Shown here: in pieces, positions 15,130 to 63,869 of the stretch
Numbering within the stretch: the stretch's first letter is position 1
Layout of the letters: every line of letters starts with the position of its first letter
Origin: Bacteroidales bacterium
GTDB lineage: Bacteria; Bacteroidota; Bacteroidia; Bacteroidales; Muribaculaceae
Length of the DNA stretch: 64,000 nt
Assembly (NCBI GenBank): GCA_020859845.1
Contig: JAJBVL010000050.1
Coordinates: forward strand, 16,070 to 80,069
Direction of reading: 5' to 3'
Notes under the pieces: model-generated
What the model saw: the letters and a program-made list of their open reading frames with translations, nothing else
Database searches by the model: none
Told to the model about the DNA's origin: nothing
Translations under genes and position numbers: made by a program

Positions 15130-15161
15130 TTTGCACAGTATCAAAAACCGTCTTAACTTTG
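15130..15161 (+). promoter_or_regulatory. Bacteroidetes-type promoter (TTTG -33, TAACTTTG -7) upstream of tRNA-Asp
   Basis: TTTG at 15130-15133, TAACTTTG at 15154-15161, 20-nt spacing. Confidence 0.7.
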
Positions 15162-15256: not shown

Positions 15257-15330
15257 GGTGTGGTAGTTCAGCTGGTTAGAATACCTGCCTGTCACGCAGG
15301 GGGTCGCGGGTTCGAGTCCCGTCCATACCG
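15257..15330 (+). tRNA. tRNA-Asp (anticodon GTC)
   Basis: GGTGTGG...CCATACC acceptor pairing, CTGTCAC anticodon loop, GGTTCGAGTCC T-arm. Confidence 0.97.
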
Positions 15331-59569: not shown

Positions 59570-59624
59570 AAGTTTGGTTTGGGACGGGAAGTTTACAATA
59601 TATTTCCCGACCCAAACCAAACTT
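59570..59624. repeat. Long inverted repeat, 21-bp arms, one mismatch, 13-nt loop
   Basis: AAGTTTGGTTTGGGACGGGAA (59570-59590) / TTCCCGACCCAAACCAAACTT (59604-59624). Confidence 0.95.
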
Positions 59625-59661
59625 AGTTGGTGATGAGGACAATATTTTGAGAAAAAAGTGT

Positions 59662-59669
59662 TAACTTTG
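59662..59669 (+). promoter_or_regulatory. Candidate -7 box TAACTTTG of the downstream ncRNA
   Basis: ttaactttgca, same context as the tRNA-Asp promoter; canonical -33 TTTG spacing not found. Confidence 0.5.
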
Positions 59670-59672
59670 CAA

Positions 59673-60010
59673 CGCGTCAGCGGCTTCGTGCAATTGACGC
59701 GCCCTCACACTCGGTCAACTGACCGGCAGGGAGGGTTATAGACATAGTAAAAGGCGTTTTTCCAAACGCTGTCTTCTGAGAGTGAAATCCTGAGAACATT
59801 TCAATATAGTCAGAAGGTAGTGCAGCGGTAGACGTCCAGGGCAGATTATATTTCTGTCCGATGGCAGCTCATATCCAGATGTGAGTTGCCTCTTTCGGGC
59901 AACATATATAATCCAAACGTGGGCTGACCGACTGCTTATCTCGACTATATGGGCAGTCTCAGGGCCTCACTCTCAAGATAAGCAGGATTGAGCGACCCAC
60001 GTCTTTTTTT
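59673..60010 (+). ncRNA. Candidate structured non-coding RNA (~335 nt) ending in a Rho-independent terminator
   Basis: Multiple helices (59673-59679/59695-59701; 59754-59759/59764-59769; 59863-59871/59882-59890; 59933-59941/59976-59984; long range 59777-59785/59967-59975) and terminal stem 59917-59923/59996-60002 followed by T7; no long ORF. Confidence 0.6.
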
Positions 60011-60060
60011 ATCAACTTCAATCAGATGCCGAATCCGGGTAGCAATAGGCAAAAATTGCA

Positions 60061-60357
60061 ATGGATAACACTCTGCAAAATCTTATTGTGGATGTTTGCC
60101 AAGGCTTCCCAACCCAAGACGTGGGGGTGAGCAATATCAACGATGCCAAGAGGTTGGCTCGTATGGCTCATTACGCATGGAAGCATGAGATTGGCTTTCA
60201 TCCCGACATGTTCAATGAAGCACTGCGAGGCAGTGCTGTGTTCGCAAATCTCTCCGATGAAGACTTGGAGGATAAAGCTCGCGAGCTTTGCCATCAAGCC
60301 GACTTCGCCAAACTGATGTTTCACGCCGCTTTCGACCTTGAAGGCTTAACCCTCTGA
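60061..60357 (+). CDS. Hypothetical small protein
   Basis: 98-aa complete ORF ending just before the LRR gene. Confidence 0.6.
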   Translation: MDNTLQNLIVDVCQGFPTQDVGVSNINDAKRLARMAHYAWKHEIGFHPDMFNEALRGSAVFANLSDEDLEDKARELCHQADFAKLMFHAAFDLEGLTL

Positions 60358-60361
60358 CACT

Positions 60362-63300
60362 ATGAAGAAACTGATACTCATGCTAATGAGCCTTGTCTCT
60401 TTCATGACCCACGCTTACGACTTTGAGGTTGATGGCTTTTATTACGAAACCAACCTCACAAATATGACGGTCACATTAGTTTCCGGAGATGTGGCATATG
60501 AGGGAAAAGTATCTATCCCTTCAACCGTTACATATAAGAATCGTGAGTTCGAAGTAATCTCAATTGAGGGAGCATTTTCTGATTGCGAAAATCTACAAAG
60601 CGTATTCATTCCGGCCTCAGTGATGAAGTTAGGGGACAATTCTTTTATGAATTGCCCCAAGCTGAACGAAATTTCAGGAATGTCAGGGGTTGCGCTCATT
60701 GGAGACAACTGCTTCAGCAACTGCACAAGTCTGGACAACCTATCACTTCCCTCTACACTTAGAAGCATAGGCAAGAATGCATTTTCTGGTTGCTCTGAAC
60801 TCATTCAATTAGATATTCCGGAAAGCGTACAAGAGATGGGAGAATATGTATTCAAGGATTGTCATAAAATGTCTAATATTTCACTTCCAAATTGTCTCAC
60901 AAACATACCATCTGGCATGTGTTATGGGTGTAGGTCTTTGTCGCAAATATCGCTACCCTCTAGAATTGCGTCCATTGGCGATAATGCTTTTAAGTTGTGT
61001 TCAGCGATAAGTAGTATTGAGATTCCTACAACAGTTAATACCATAGGCGATTCCTCTTTCAGTGGATGCACAAGTCTTACTAGAATTGATTTCTTGGATG
61101 CTAACTCGGAATTACAAATAAACGGCAATTCAACAGCTTTTATAGATTGTCCGATTAACACATTATATTTGGGAAGAGATATTGTATACCCCCGAGATCC
61201 CTCAAATTACGGCATTACACAATATTATTCACCTTTTGAAGGTAAATCCAGTCTTAAAGAAGTGGTAATTGGATCCATGGTCACTAATTTATATTTCTAT
61301 CTTTTTAGAAATTGCAGCCAACTTCAAAGCATCACCATTCCATCCAATGTAACTTATATTTATTACGGCGTGTTTGAAGACTGCACAGCGTTGACCCACC
61401 TTACCATTGAAGACTCAGAATACGAATTGAGTTTTGGAGGAACAGATATGAATCCCCTGAACATAGGGATATTGTTTTTCAATGATGCGCCTTTGCATGA
61501 CGTATATATTGGAAGGGAGTTGCGGGGCAAAGGTGATTCAAGAACTGGATATTCTGCCTTGTATAAGCAGACAGGGCTGAAAACCATTACCATTGGTGAC
61601 TTCGTTAAGAATATTAACTCATTGTTGTATGACGAATCCGGATCATTGAGTACCACACTCGCAAGATATTCTCAATTGGAACGTTTAGATGTTGGCCCTT
61701 CGCTGTCTATTTTGCCAGACTTGTCGCAAAACGATAATTTACAGCAACTCACTATAAGGCGCACAATTCCTCCGGTGGCTAATGGCTTCAGCAATAAGCA
61801 ATATATGGATTTGATCCCTGATATTCCAAGCGGTAGTTTAGATCAATATTCAACTACTGGTCTCTGGCGCAATTTTTGGCAGTTCAATGAAAACGAAGGT
61901 TTGATATCTATGTTCGATGCCGGGGGATTAAGGTACCATCTTAAGGCTGATAATACACTTGAGGTAATAGCGAAAGACGAGTCTTATGATGGAGACATAG
62001 TTATACCGGCTCAAACAACTTATTTAGGGCATCCTTATCCGGTAACGTCAATACGAAACACCGCCTTTGCAAATAGCGCCATCACGTCGATTTTTGTTTC
62101 GGAAAAGGTAACCTCAATCAGAGACGGCAGTTTTTACAATTGTAAGCAATTAAAGGAAGTGGTTTTTCAAGGGGATTTGGAATCCATAGGCTCATCTGCA
62201 TTTAAAGATTGCAAATCCCTTAGCCTCTGTAACATTCCAATGACAGTAACCTCAATTGGAGATTATGCTTTCTGCAACACAGGGCTGATAAAGGTTAGCA
62301 TTCCCGTATCAGTATCATCTATGGGACAAGGAGTATTCTCAGATTGTGCTTTATTGGAAAGTCTTGACATTCAAGCGAACATTGCGGCATTACCCAATGC
62401 CACAGTAACAAATAGCAGCAAGTTAGAAGAAATAATACTCGGTAACGGAATTACAACCATTGAAGAAAAGGCCATTTCCAACTGCACATCTCTTACCTCC
62501 ATTGAATTCCCATCTTCACTCAAGGTGGTTTGTTCAGAAGCATTCCAAGGATGTTCTTCGCTTTCTAGAATCATTCTCAACGAAGGTATAGAAGTATTGG
62601 AAGATAATGCCTTTCATGGACTATGCTCCCTTTATCAGCTTGTCTTGCCCGCCTCCTTGCAATTTGTGGGTTCTGAGGCATTCAATGGATGCTCGTCGTT
62701 AAAGCAAGTGATTATTGCTGATTCGGAAATACCCTTGACTTTATCATCCTACAGTTCGTGGTTCGACAGAGAGCAGCTCAAATATGAGGATATGACATAT
62801 TATTTCGCAGCCTTTTGGCATGGGGCATTTTATTGTTGTCCTCTTGAATATATCTATATCGGCCGTGATTTGAACTATAATCATTATACTCGAACCTGTA
62901 GTATCTATAATGATAGAGACGCTGTCTACCATAACAAATTTGACAGCCCTTTCTATGATATAACAACTATAAAGAAGGTTGAGATTGGCCCGCTTGTAAA
63001 GTATTTGGGAGACGATACGTTTGATATTCCTGAAATAAACAGGAAGGTTTCTCCTGACTTATTCAAGGGTTGTGTAAATATTGCAGAAGTAATATCTTGG
63101 GCGATATTGCCTCCAAAGCGTGTTATGTTCGATTATTCGGTCTACGATACAGCGAACTTGTTGGTGCCAGAGGAGGCAAGGTCAATGTATGAGACCACTC
63201 CTGGGTGGGAAGAATTTATAAAGGTAAACCAAAATGGTATAGAGTCAGTTTCCACGGACTTCGATAGCAACCAATACATTGTTCACAACCTTCAAGGAAT

Positions 63301-63391
63301 TTTGGTCTTGAAGACTCAAGACCAATCACAAATTCAATCTCTACCCAATGGTATCTATATTATCAATGGGAAGAAAGTTCTCATTCAATAA
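60362..63391 (+). CDS. BspA-like leucine-rich repeat (LRR_5) surface protein with GIYI-type C-terminal tail
   Basis: Many repeats of type F.GC.SL..I.IP.SV..IG..AF; signal peptide; C-terminus YIVHNLQGILVLKTQ...LPNGIYIINGKKVLIQ. Confidence 0.9.
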   Translation: MKKLILMLMSLVSFMTHAYDFEVDGFYYETNLTNMTVTLVSGDVAYEGKVSIPSTVTYKNREFEVISIEGAFSDCENLQSVFIPASVMKLGDNSFMNCPKLNEISGMSGVALIGDNCFSNCTSLDNLSLPSTLRSIGKNAFSGCSELIQLDIPESVQEMGEYVFKDCHKMSNISLPNCLTNIPSGMCYGCRSLSQISLPSRIASIGDNAFKLCSAISSIEIPTTVNTIGDSSFSGCTSLTRIDFLDANSELQINGNSTAFIDCPINTLYLGRDIVYPRDPSNYGITQYYSPFEGKSSLKEVVIGSMVTNLYFYLFRNCSQLQSITIPSNVTYIYYGVFEDCTALTHLTIEDSEYELSFGGTDMNPLNIGILFFNDAPLHDVYIGRELRGKGDSRTGYSALYKQTGLKTITIGDFVKNINSLLYDESGSLSTTLARYSQLERLDVGPSLSILPDLSQNDNLQQLTIRRTIPPVANGFSNKQYMDLIPDIPSGSLDQYSTTGLWRNFWQFNENEGLISMFDAGGLRYHLKADNTLEVIAKDESYDGDIVIPAQTTYLGHPYPVTSIRNTAFANSAITSIFVSEKVTSIRDGSFYNCKQLKEVVFQGDLESIGSSAFKDCKSLSLCNIPMTVTSIGDYAFCNTGLIKVSIPVSVSSMGQGVFSDCALLESLDIQANIAALPNATVTNSSKLEEIILGNGITTIEEKAISNCTSLTSIEFPSSLKVVCSEAFQGCSSLSRIILNEGIEVLEDNAFHGLCSLYQLVLPASLQFVGSEAFNGCSSLKQVIIADSEIPLTLSSYSSWFDREQLKYEDMTYYFAAFWHGAFYCCPLEYIYIGRDLNYNHYTRTCSIYNDRDAVYHNKFDSPFYDITTIKKVEIGPLVKYLGDDTFDIPEINRKVSPDLFKGCVNIAEVISWAILPPKRVMFDYSVYDTANLLVPEEARSMYETTPGWEEFIKVNQNGIESVSTDFDSNQYIVHNLQGILVLKTQDQSQIQSLPNGIYIINGKKVLIQ

Positions 63392-63461: not shown

Positions 63462-63869
63462 ATGAGTAAAGGCATCTATAAAATATCGCAGACAGACAAG
63501 ATAGCGTATTATGATTATATCGTGAAGTTTGAAAATGAACTTTCACATTTTGTCTATGATTGGCATGCACAATCGATTCAAGACTTCCTTGTAGAACATC
63601 AAATATCTTCTTCGGAAGGAAGCGGAAAATTTTGGATTCACTTGGTGGCTGGCCATAAGCAACGAGATAAGGCATATTCTATTTTAAAAAGAATACGCAA
63701 TTCAATGGCTCACGGGAATATTCAGAAAGGCAAAAAGTATTATTGCATCAAAGATTTCACAAATAGTGGAAACAAGACGATGGATTGTCAAATTCCGGTA
63801 AAGGTACTTTGGCGGTTGATTGAATTGATAATAGAGACACGTATTTCATCTATTAACTCAGAGCTGTAG
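63462..63869 (+). CDS. HEPN-like domain protein (putative RNase)
   Basis: KRIRNSMAHGNI contains Rx4H motif (R-NSMA-H); all-helical short protein. Confidence 0.5.
   Translation: MSKGIYKISQTDKIAYYDYIVKFENELSHFVYDWHAQSIQDFLVEHQISSSEGSGKFWIHLVAGHKQRDKAYSILKRIRNSMAHGNIQKGKKYYCIKDFTNSGNKTMDCQIPVKVLWRLIELIIETRISSINSEL

Follow-up and report, generated by a model that had tools for sequence, protein, structure and literature searches.

We analysed a stretch of 64,000 nucleotides (nt) from a Muribaculaceae genome (assembly GCA_020859845.1, contig JAJBVL010000050.1), hereafter the window, in which a structured RNA element has RhuM-like and Fic/Doc genes on its upstream side and a gene for a BspA-type leucine-rich-repeat (LRR) protein on its downstream side. 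A preliminary description, made from the sequence alone, had placed a novel structured RNA at 59625-60010 and regarded it as independently transcribed, with a possible link to the toxin genes on its flank. The data presented here indicate that the element probably belongs to a class of gene switch that had not been listed before, carried as a leader by the gene behind it.

The segment had been described as free of credible open reading frames (ORFs), with a perfect promoter box in the same context as the tRNA-Asp promoter and a closing stem followed by seven Ts, and all of this is borne out. No ORF of at least 50 aa is found within 59669-60010, the 3' end is formed by a GC-rich stem and the T-run, and the TAACTTTG box recurs at 15154, ~100 nt ahead of tRNA-Asp. 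Of 108 homologues, 88 have a TAnnTTTG box at a distance of 190-330 nt on the 5' side of the 3'-domain pattern. The boundaries needed revision: the structured RNA does lie inside 59625-60010, but it starts just after 59669 rather than at 59625, and the functional unit extends past 60010, since a hairpin at ~60028-60050 holds the partner of a terminator strand. The coordinates of all features are given in Table 1.

Table 1. Features of the leader RNA and the genes behind it (window coordinates; percentages are paired cells in the alignment of homologues).
Feature	Position	Strand	Remarks
Promoter box TAACTTTG, Bacteroidetes-type -7	59662-59669	+	Read directly from the sequence
Structured leader RNA (approximate transcript, promoter to U-tract end)	59670-60010	+	Fold z -7.9, homologues, covariation
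5' variable hairpins	59673-59680/59694-59701 and 59702-59706/59731-59735	+	Minimum free energy fold; second recognisable in type-1 homologues
Hairpin P2, GCGTTT/AAACGC	59754-59769	+	90.7% paired; double changes at 4 of 6 pairs
Helix P3	59770-59776/59813-59819	+	71-84% paired; double changes present
Long-range helix A, TGAGAGTGA/TCACTCTCA	59777-59785/59967-59975	+	Partner-swap test (see text)
Kissing helix K, loop CCTGAGA/TCTCAGG	59789-59795/59957-59963	+	100% paired (40 sequences); double changes at 5 of 7 pairs
Long-range helix B, ATAGTC/GACTAT	59806-59811/59943-59948	+	Double changes at all 6 pairs
Helix C, GCAG/CTGC (most relatives GCAACG/CGTTGC)	59822-59825/59932-59935	+	98.8% paired; double change at one pair in 10 sequences
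Helix P5, GATTATAT/ATATAATC, variable tip	59844-59913	+	64.8% paired; double changes at 5 of 7 pairs; tip badly aligned
Closing stem P1, ACGTGGG/CCCACGT	59917-59923/59996-60002	+	99.6% paired
Helix D, TTATCT/AGATAA (GCTTATC/GATAAGC)	59936-59981	+	96.7-98.3% paired; two pairs with double changes, in 17 and 15 sequences
Helix E, GCGACCC/GGGTAGC	59992-59998/60037-60043	+	One G.A mismatch in the window copy; partner-swap test (see text)
U-tract after closing stem, intrinsic-terminator form	60004-60010	+	T-run mostly 4-8 nt in relatives
Post-terminator hairpin GCC...GGC, loop bearing the E 3' strand	60028-60050	+	Conserved GCCGAATCnGGGnAGCnATAGGC; flank pairing Z 9.3 in relatives
98-aa ORF, first gene 3' of the leader	60061-60357	+	Without Pfam family
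BspA-type LRR protein, signal-like N-terminus	60362-63391	+	4 nt past the 98-aa ORF; PF13306, E 7e-113

A conserved pseudoknotted fold

The minimum free energy of 59669-60010 is -142.2 kcal/mol against a mean of -97.0 (sd 5.7) for dinucleotide shuffles, corresponding to a z of -7.87, and none of 100 shuffles folded as well. A search of the whole window with Rfam 15 at the gathering threshold returned tRNA-Asp as the sole match. Around the element no family matched even at E<10, the hits at E up to 10 being sub-threshold and to unrelated families, and the homologue loci scanned gave nothing except tRNAs. By ARAGORN and Rfam, the window holds only the tRNA-Asp at 15257 and no tmRNA. Membership of a known RNA family was rejected, as neither the window copy nor the homologue loci match Rfam at any useful level.

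Reading the homologues side by side led to a pseudoknotted model in which helices A, K and B each take their 5' strand from the loop of P3 and zip together the hairpin loops of P3 and D, and P1 closes the 3' domain. Among the homologues, helix A is formed by the variable strand after P3 and the strand after GCC, helix K by the P4 loop and the strand before GCC, and helix B by the variable strand before the 3' side of P3 and the strand after the 5' side of D. Pairing was measured by an alignment-free partner-swap test on 140 non-identical homologues, in which each 5' strand was scored with its own 3' strand or with that of another sequence. Own strands scored 10.5 against 5.1 for helix A (Z 56, 139 distinct duplexes), 9.7 against 5.1 for helix B (Z 51, 137 distinct duplexes) and 9.0 against 7.0 for helix K (Z 16, 14 distinct duplexes), all Z values taking no account of phylogeny; with so many distinct duplexes, the signal in A and B is unlikely to stem from shared ancestry.

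When the whole model was placed on a MAFFT alignment of 40 sequences, 83.4% of cells were paired compared with 72.9% in shuffles, double changes were found in 332 cells compared with 136, and the covariation score was 0.373 compared with 0.197 (0/500 shuffles for each). Sliding the model along the alignment lowered the pairing from 83% to 38-49%. Helix A is only 51% paired in this alignment, which we put down to MAFFT shifting many rows by one column, and the swap test is the better measure for it. RNAalifold by itself recovers just P2, P1, D and two further pairs, missing the long-range helices because they are pseudoknots. The predicted pseudoknot and kissing-loop structure is confirmed by this covariation.

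The pairings noticed in the preliminary description find their place in the model. Its 9-bp long-range pairing is helix A, and its 9-bp pairing TGCTTATCT/AGATAAGCA is helix D, 97-98% paired among homologues. GACTGC/GCAGTC, proposed as the competitor of the latter, is an alternative of lesser strength (90% of cells paired, double changes in 4 cases) and competes chiefly with another partner, the upstream GCAG/GCAACG strand that forms helix C. With strong covariation, no Rfam match, a promoter box of its own and a terminator form, the claim of a novel structured RNA stands, and the observation reaches further than first noted. The tip of P5 is enlarged by a repeat-like sequence (TGCACAATG..GAGTGCA..) in two copies of one genome (L018 and L020, genome G086), as if the tip tolerated insertion.

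Predicted pairing across the terminator

In relatives, a strand of the AGAUUCCC type, lying just 5' of and overlapping the P1 3' strand, pairs with a strand of the GGGAAUCU type past the U-tract. This helix, E, scored 8.05 with its own partner against 6.55 with swapped partners (Z 15, 151 homologues). In 64 of 80 strong cases E overlaps the P1 strand by 3-4 nt (in the window, the CCC of the closing stem is common to both), so that P1 and E cannot both form fully. As judged from these strands, helix E is the coupling of the RNA to the mRNA behind it, with two mutually exclusive states.

In the long-type homologues the terminator form consists of the stem and a T-run mostly of 4-8 nt; a simple terminator scan, which admits loops of 3-8 nt only, omits the P1 stem. 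In a shorter type of ~200 nt the E pairing is visible by eye (L123, L124 and L249-L251) and the 5' strand of P1 has an upstream alternative partner (CUCACGC-UAUA-GCGUGGG), while the T-run is weak in the plasmid copies of this type.

A downstream strand brought to the core by E, together with the size, the several pseudoknots and the near-invariant core positions, would also fit a self-processing ribozyme in the 5' untranslated region (UTR), where cleavage or rearrangement near P1 and E alters the stability or translation of the mRNA. We consider a ribozyme improbable, as known ribozyme models gave no match and termination explains better the U-tract that follows P1 in the long types.

Genomic context of the copies

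The constant feature across copies is a gene on the same strand that starts ~30-110 nt downstream. For 108 loci of named genomes, the median distance from the T-run to the next ATG that opens an ORF of 60 aa or more is 68 nt (quartiles 54-82), and the nearest gene, by simple and crude ORF rules, is co-oriented with the RNA in 78 of 85 cases downstream and in 42 of 85 upstream, compared with 64% for neighbours generally (P ~1e-16 versus the upstream rate). This steady distance of a same-strand gene and the covarying helix E, which reaches past the U-tract and into the gene's 5' UTR, argue for a leader rather than a free RNA and against the independent transcription proposed earlier. A free trans-acting RNA of ~340 nt, with its downstream gene merely adjacent or expressed by leakage, would agree with the promoter box and terminator form, with the very diverse downstream genes and with a size resembling that of ornate RNAs of unknown function; in view of the fixed distance and of E it appears unlikely, though less so than the ribozyme.

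The orientation also bears on whether the element acts as folded DNA, as a mobile or recombination element similar to a miniature inverted-repeat transposable element or an attC cassette. Many diverged copies per genome, the accessory nature of the genes and the occurrence on plasmids point in this direction. The fixed orientation to the downstream gene and the promoter box at most loci do not, and neither a common gene nor a transposase stands beside the copies at nine loci, which leaves folded DNA a quite improbable explanation.

The neighbours at these nine loci have in common only LRR-type or sporadic similarities, and the RhuM-like and Fic/Doc neighbours of the window copy are incidental. 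In type III toxin-antitoxin systems, an RNA with a leaky terminator precedes the toxin gene, and with a Fic protein directly upstream in the window, the element could have been the RNA antitoxin of the Fic/Doc or RhuM-like genes. Both genes, however, lie upstream of the RNA and are not kept beside other copies, the RNA has no repeats and the downstream families listed include nothing ToxN-like; an antitoxin is highly improbable, largely refuted by the neighbour survey, and the connection to the toxin genes is not upheld.

The genes behind the leader are accessory and of many kinds. Among 86 downstream products we found TIGR04117 CxxxC radical-SAM targets (7), LRR_5 proteins (5) and LytTR proteins (3), with glycosyltransferases, FHA proteins, UvrD/GajB-like helicases, SspB-like proteins and a type III methyltransferase as singletons or pairs; lipoproteins and defence genes also occur. 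About half of the downstream proteins have a hydrophobic N-terminus (44/65 and 56/108, by a simple hydropathy rule), and one protein start is shared by a named Muribaculaceae locus (L140) and a locus of the window's family (L087), which suggests Muribaculaceae as that family. Small proteins like xELQSRREFFKKAAKGALPILGAI, the type to which the 7 TIGR04117 matches among the 86 products refer, recur at eleven loci, which suggests that a family resembling ribosomally synthesised and post-translationally modified peptides comes repeatedly under the leader. Proteins of ~70-90 aa (..SVSWLARKLNCHRSVVYRIFNKNSID..) with the look of helix-turn-helix regulators recur at seven. A copy of the short type (L250:2501-2764) precedes the beta-lactamase gene blaMUN-1 by 67 nt on plasmid pBUN1 of Bacteroides uniformis; by eye, the short plasmid type, this copy included, has the layout and E pairing of the long type.

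Elsewhere in the window, a separate 21-bp inverted repeat, AAGTTTGGTTTGGGACGGGAA/TTCCCGACCCAAACCAAACTT with one mismatch, lies at 59570-59624 between the Fic gene and the RNA and is possibly the terminator of the Fic operon. A 135-aa ORF at 63462-63869 has sub-threshold similarity to the HEPN protein pEK499_p136 (E 5e-4).

Distribution in Bacteroidales

By blastn, the genome of the window holds three further close copies of 73-85% identity, and more are found by covariance model; with a second copy as query, 55 of 397 genomes of the family gave matches, many of them short. We then used R1, a covariance model built on the 3' domain (95 nt), whose E-values are rough. As only the 3' domain seeded the first model, diverged types are undercounted, and the large scans scored at most 14-17 candidates per genome. 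R1 matched 275 of 297 genomes of the window's family, probably the Muribaculaceae, with 1 to at least 14 copies each, and 62 of 295 genomes across Bacteroidales, the named matches being in Bacteroides, Prevotella, Paraprevotella, Parabacteroides, Xylanibacter and Muribaculaceae. A class-wide R1 scan found no order besides Bacteroidales, to which all four matching genomes belong. On closer scanning, each of the 26 near-complete genomes of the family gave between 1 and 12 matches. Because the closing stem and D are nearly palindromic, some of these matches are echoes on the antisense strand, and antisense matches were discounted on this ground.

The short type was found on a small number of plasmids from Bacteroidales and, in part, in three unannotated phage records; the window sequence gave no blastn match to phages or plasmids. 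A phage or plasmid element was rejected on these grounds, and 12 contigs from a first IMG/VR pattern scan were dropped as the covariance model gave them no support.

Relation to known RNAs and a possible mechanism

As in riboswitches and terminator-containing leaders, a conserved body in the 5' UTR is combined with mutually exclusive helices and with a P1-like closing stem that would double as terminator stem. Compared with these, the RNA is larger than most (~330 nt), the downstream genes are unrelated, the alternative strand lies downstream of the U-tract and Rfam has no match. We know of no described leader in which a terminator and an mRNA hairpin exchange strands.

Thousands of automatic candidate structured RNAs have been reported from human microbiomes (PMC8040213), including HMP2_1881, a 108-bp expressed candidate of Bacteroidetes near radical SAM domains. 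It resembles our RNA in taxon, in 3'-domain length and in the radical-SAM link (here the TIGR04117 products), and could be a fragment of it; the text of that paper mentions neither a 300-nt pseudoknotted body nor a leader switch. The ornate large RNAs GOLLD, ROOL and OLE (PMC12286853) are likewise large, elaborate, bacterial and of unclear role, but this RNA has no Rfam match and each copy leads a different gene. The FopS RNAs of Bacteroides thetaiotaomicron (PMC11697453) are also a multi-copy paralogous family of Bacteroidales with sigma-ABfr promoters; they are trans-acting small RNAs of ~65-70 nt with an R1 seed, mostly intergenic or antisense, unlike the ~330-nt leaders of other structure found here. 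Apart from that possible fragment, no description of this RNA was found in the literature searched. Structured leader RNAs are known as a kind; the present class appears to be unlisted, as do its architecture and breadth.

Taken together, we favour, with a probability of roughly 0.6, a new class of cis-acting 5'-leader RNA, restricted to Bacteroidales as far as searched, that switches the downstream gene. We infer that transcription would begin at the TAnnTTTG promoter and that the first ~330 nt would fold into a compact pseudoknotted body. In one state, P1 and the U-tract would act as an intrinsic terminator at which most transcripts end. Read-through RNA would contain the small hairpin just before the start codon, whose loop may pair (E) with the P1 3' strand and open P1. 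A signal on the folded body, whether small molecule, protein or RNA, would tip the balance between P1/terminator and read-through/E and thereby set downstream expression; regulation may act on termination, on what becomes of the read-through RNA or on translation. The diversity of the downstream genes speaks for a physiological cue of a general kind, or for a shared protein partner, rather than for a pathway metabolite.

Several observations weigh against a leader switch. The 3' strand of E lies past the U-tract, so that E is unable to prevent termination and can act on read-through RNA only; the short type keeps E without a good U-tract, and termination is perhaps not the output everywhere. 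No function common to the downstream genes hints at a ligand, and E has one mismatch in the window copy. The preliminary interpretation is supported in part. More tentatively, and at somewhat less than even odds, the RNA would represent a large Bacteroidales-only switch class in which one common physiological signal controls scattered surface, peptide-modification, regulatory and defence genes by means of a multi-helix architecture of kissing loops and of strands exchanged between the terminator and the hairpin in the mRNA.

A pseudoknotted RNA of ~330 nt, present in >90% of the sampled genomes of one gut family, often in multiple copies, and also in numerous other Bacteroidales, has no entry in the standard RNA library. 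Should it truly work as a switch, many accessory genes of these bacteria may be coordinated by one signal, including those for surface proteins, radical-SAM peptide targets and defence. The leader is also a possible control element for a group poor in genetic tools, and what ligand or partner it has can now be tested directly.
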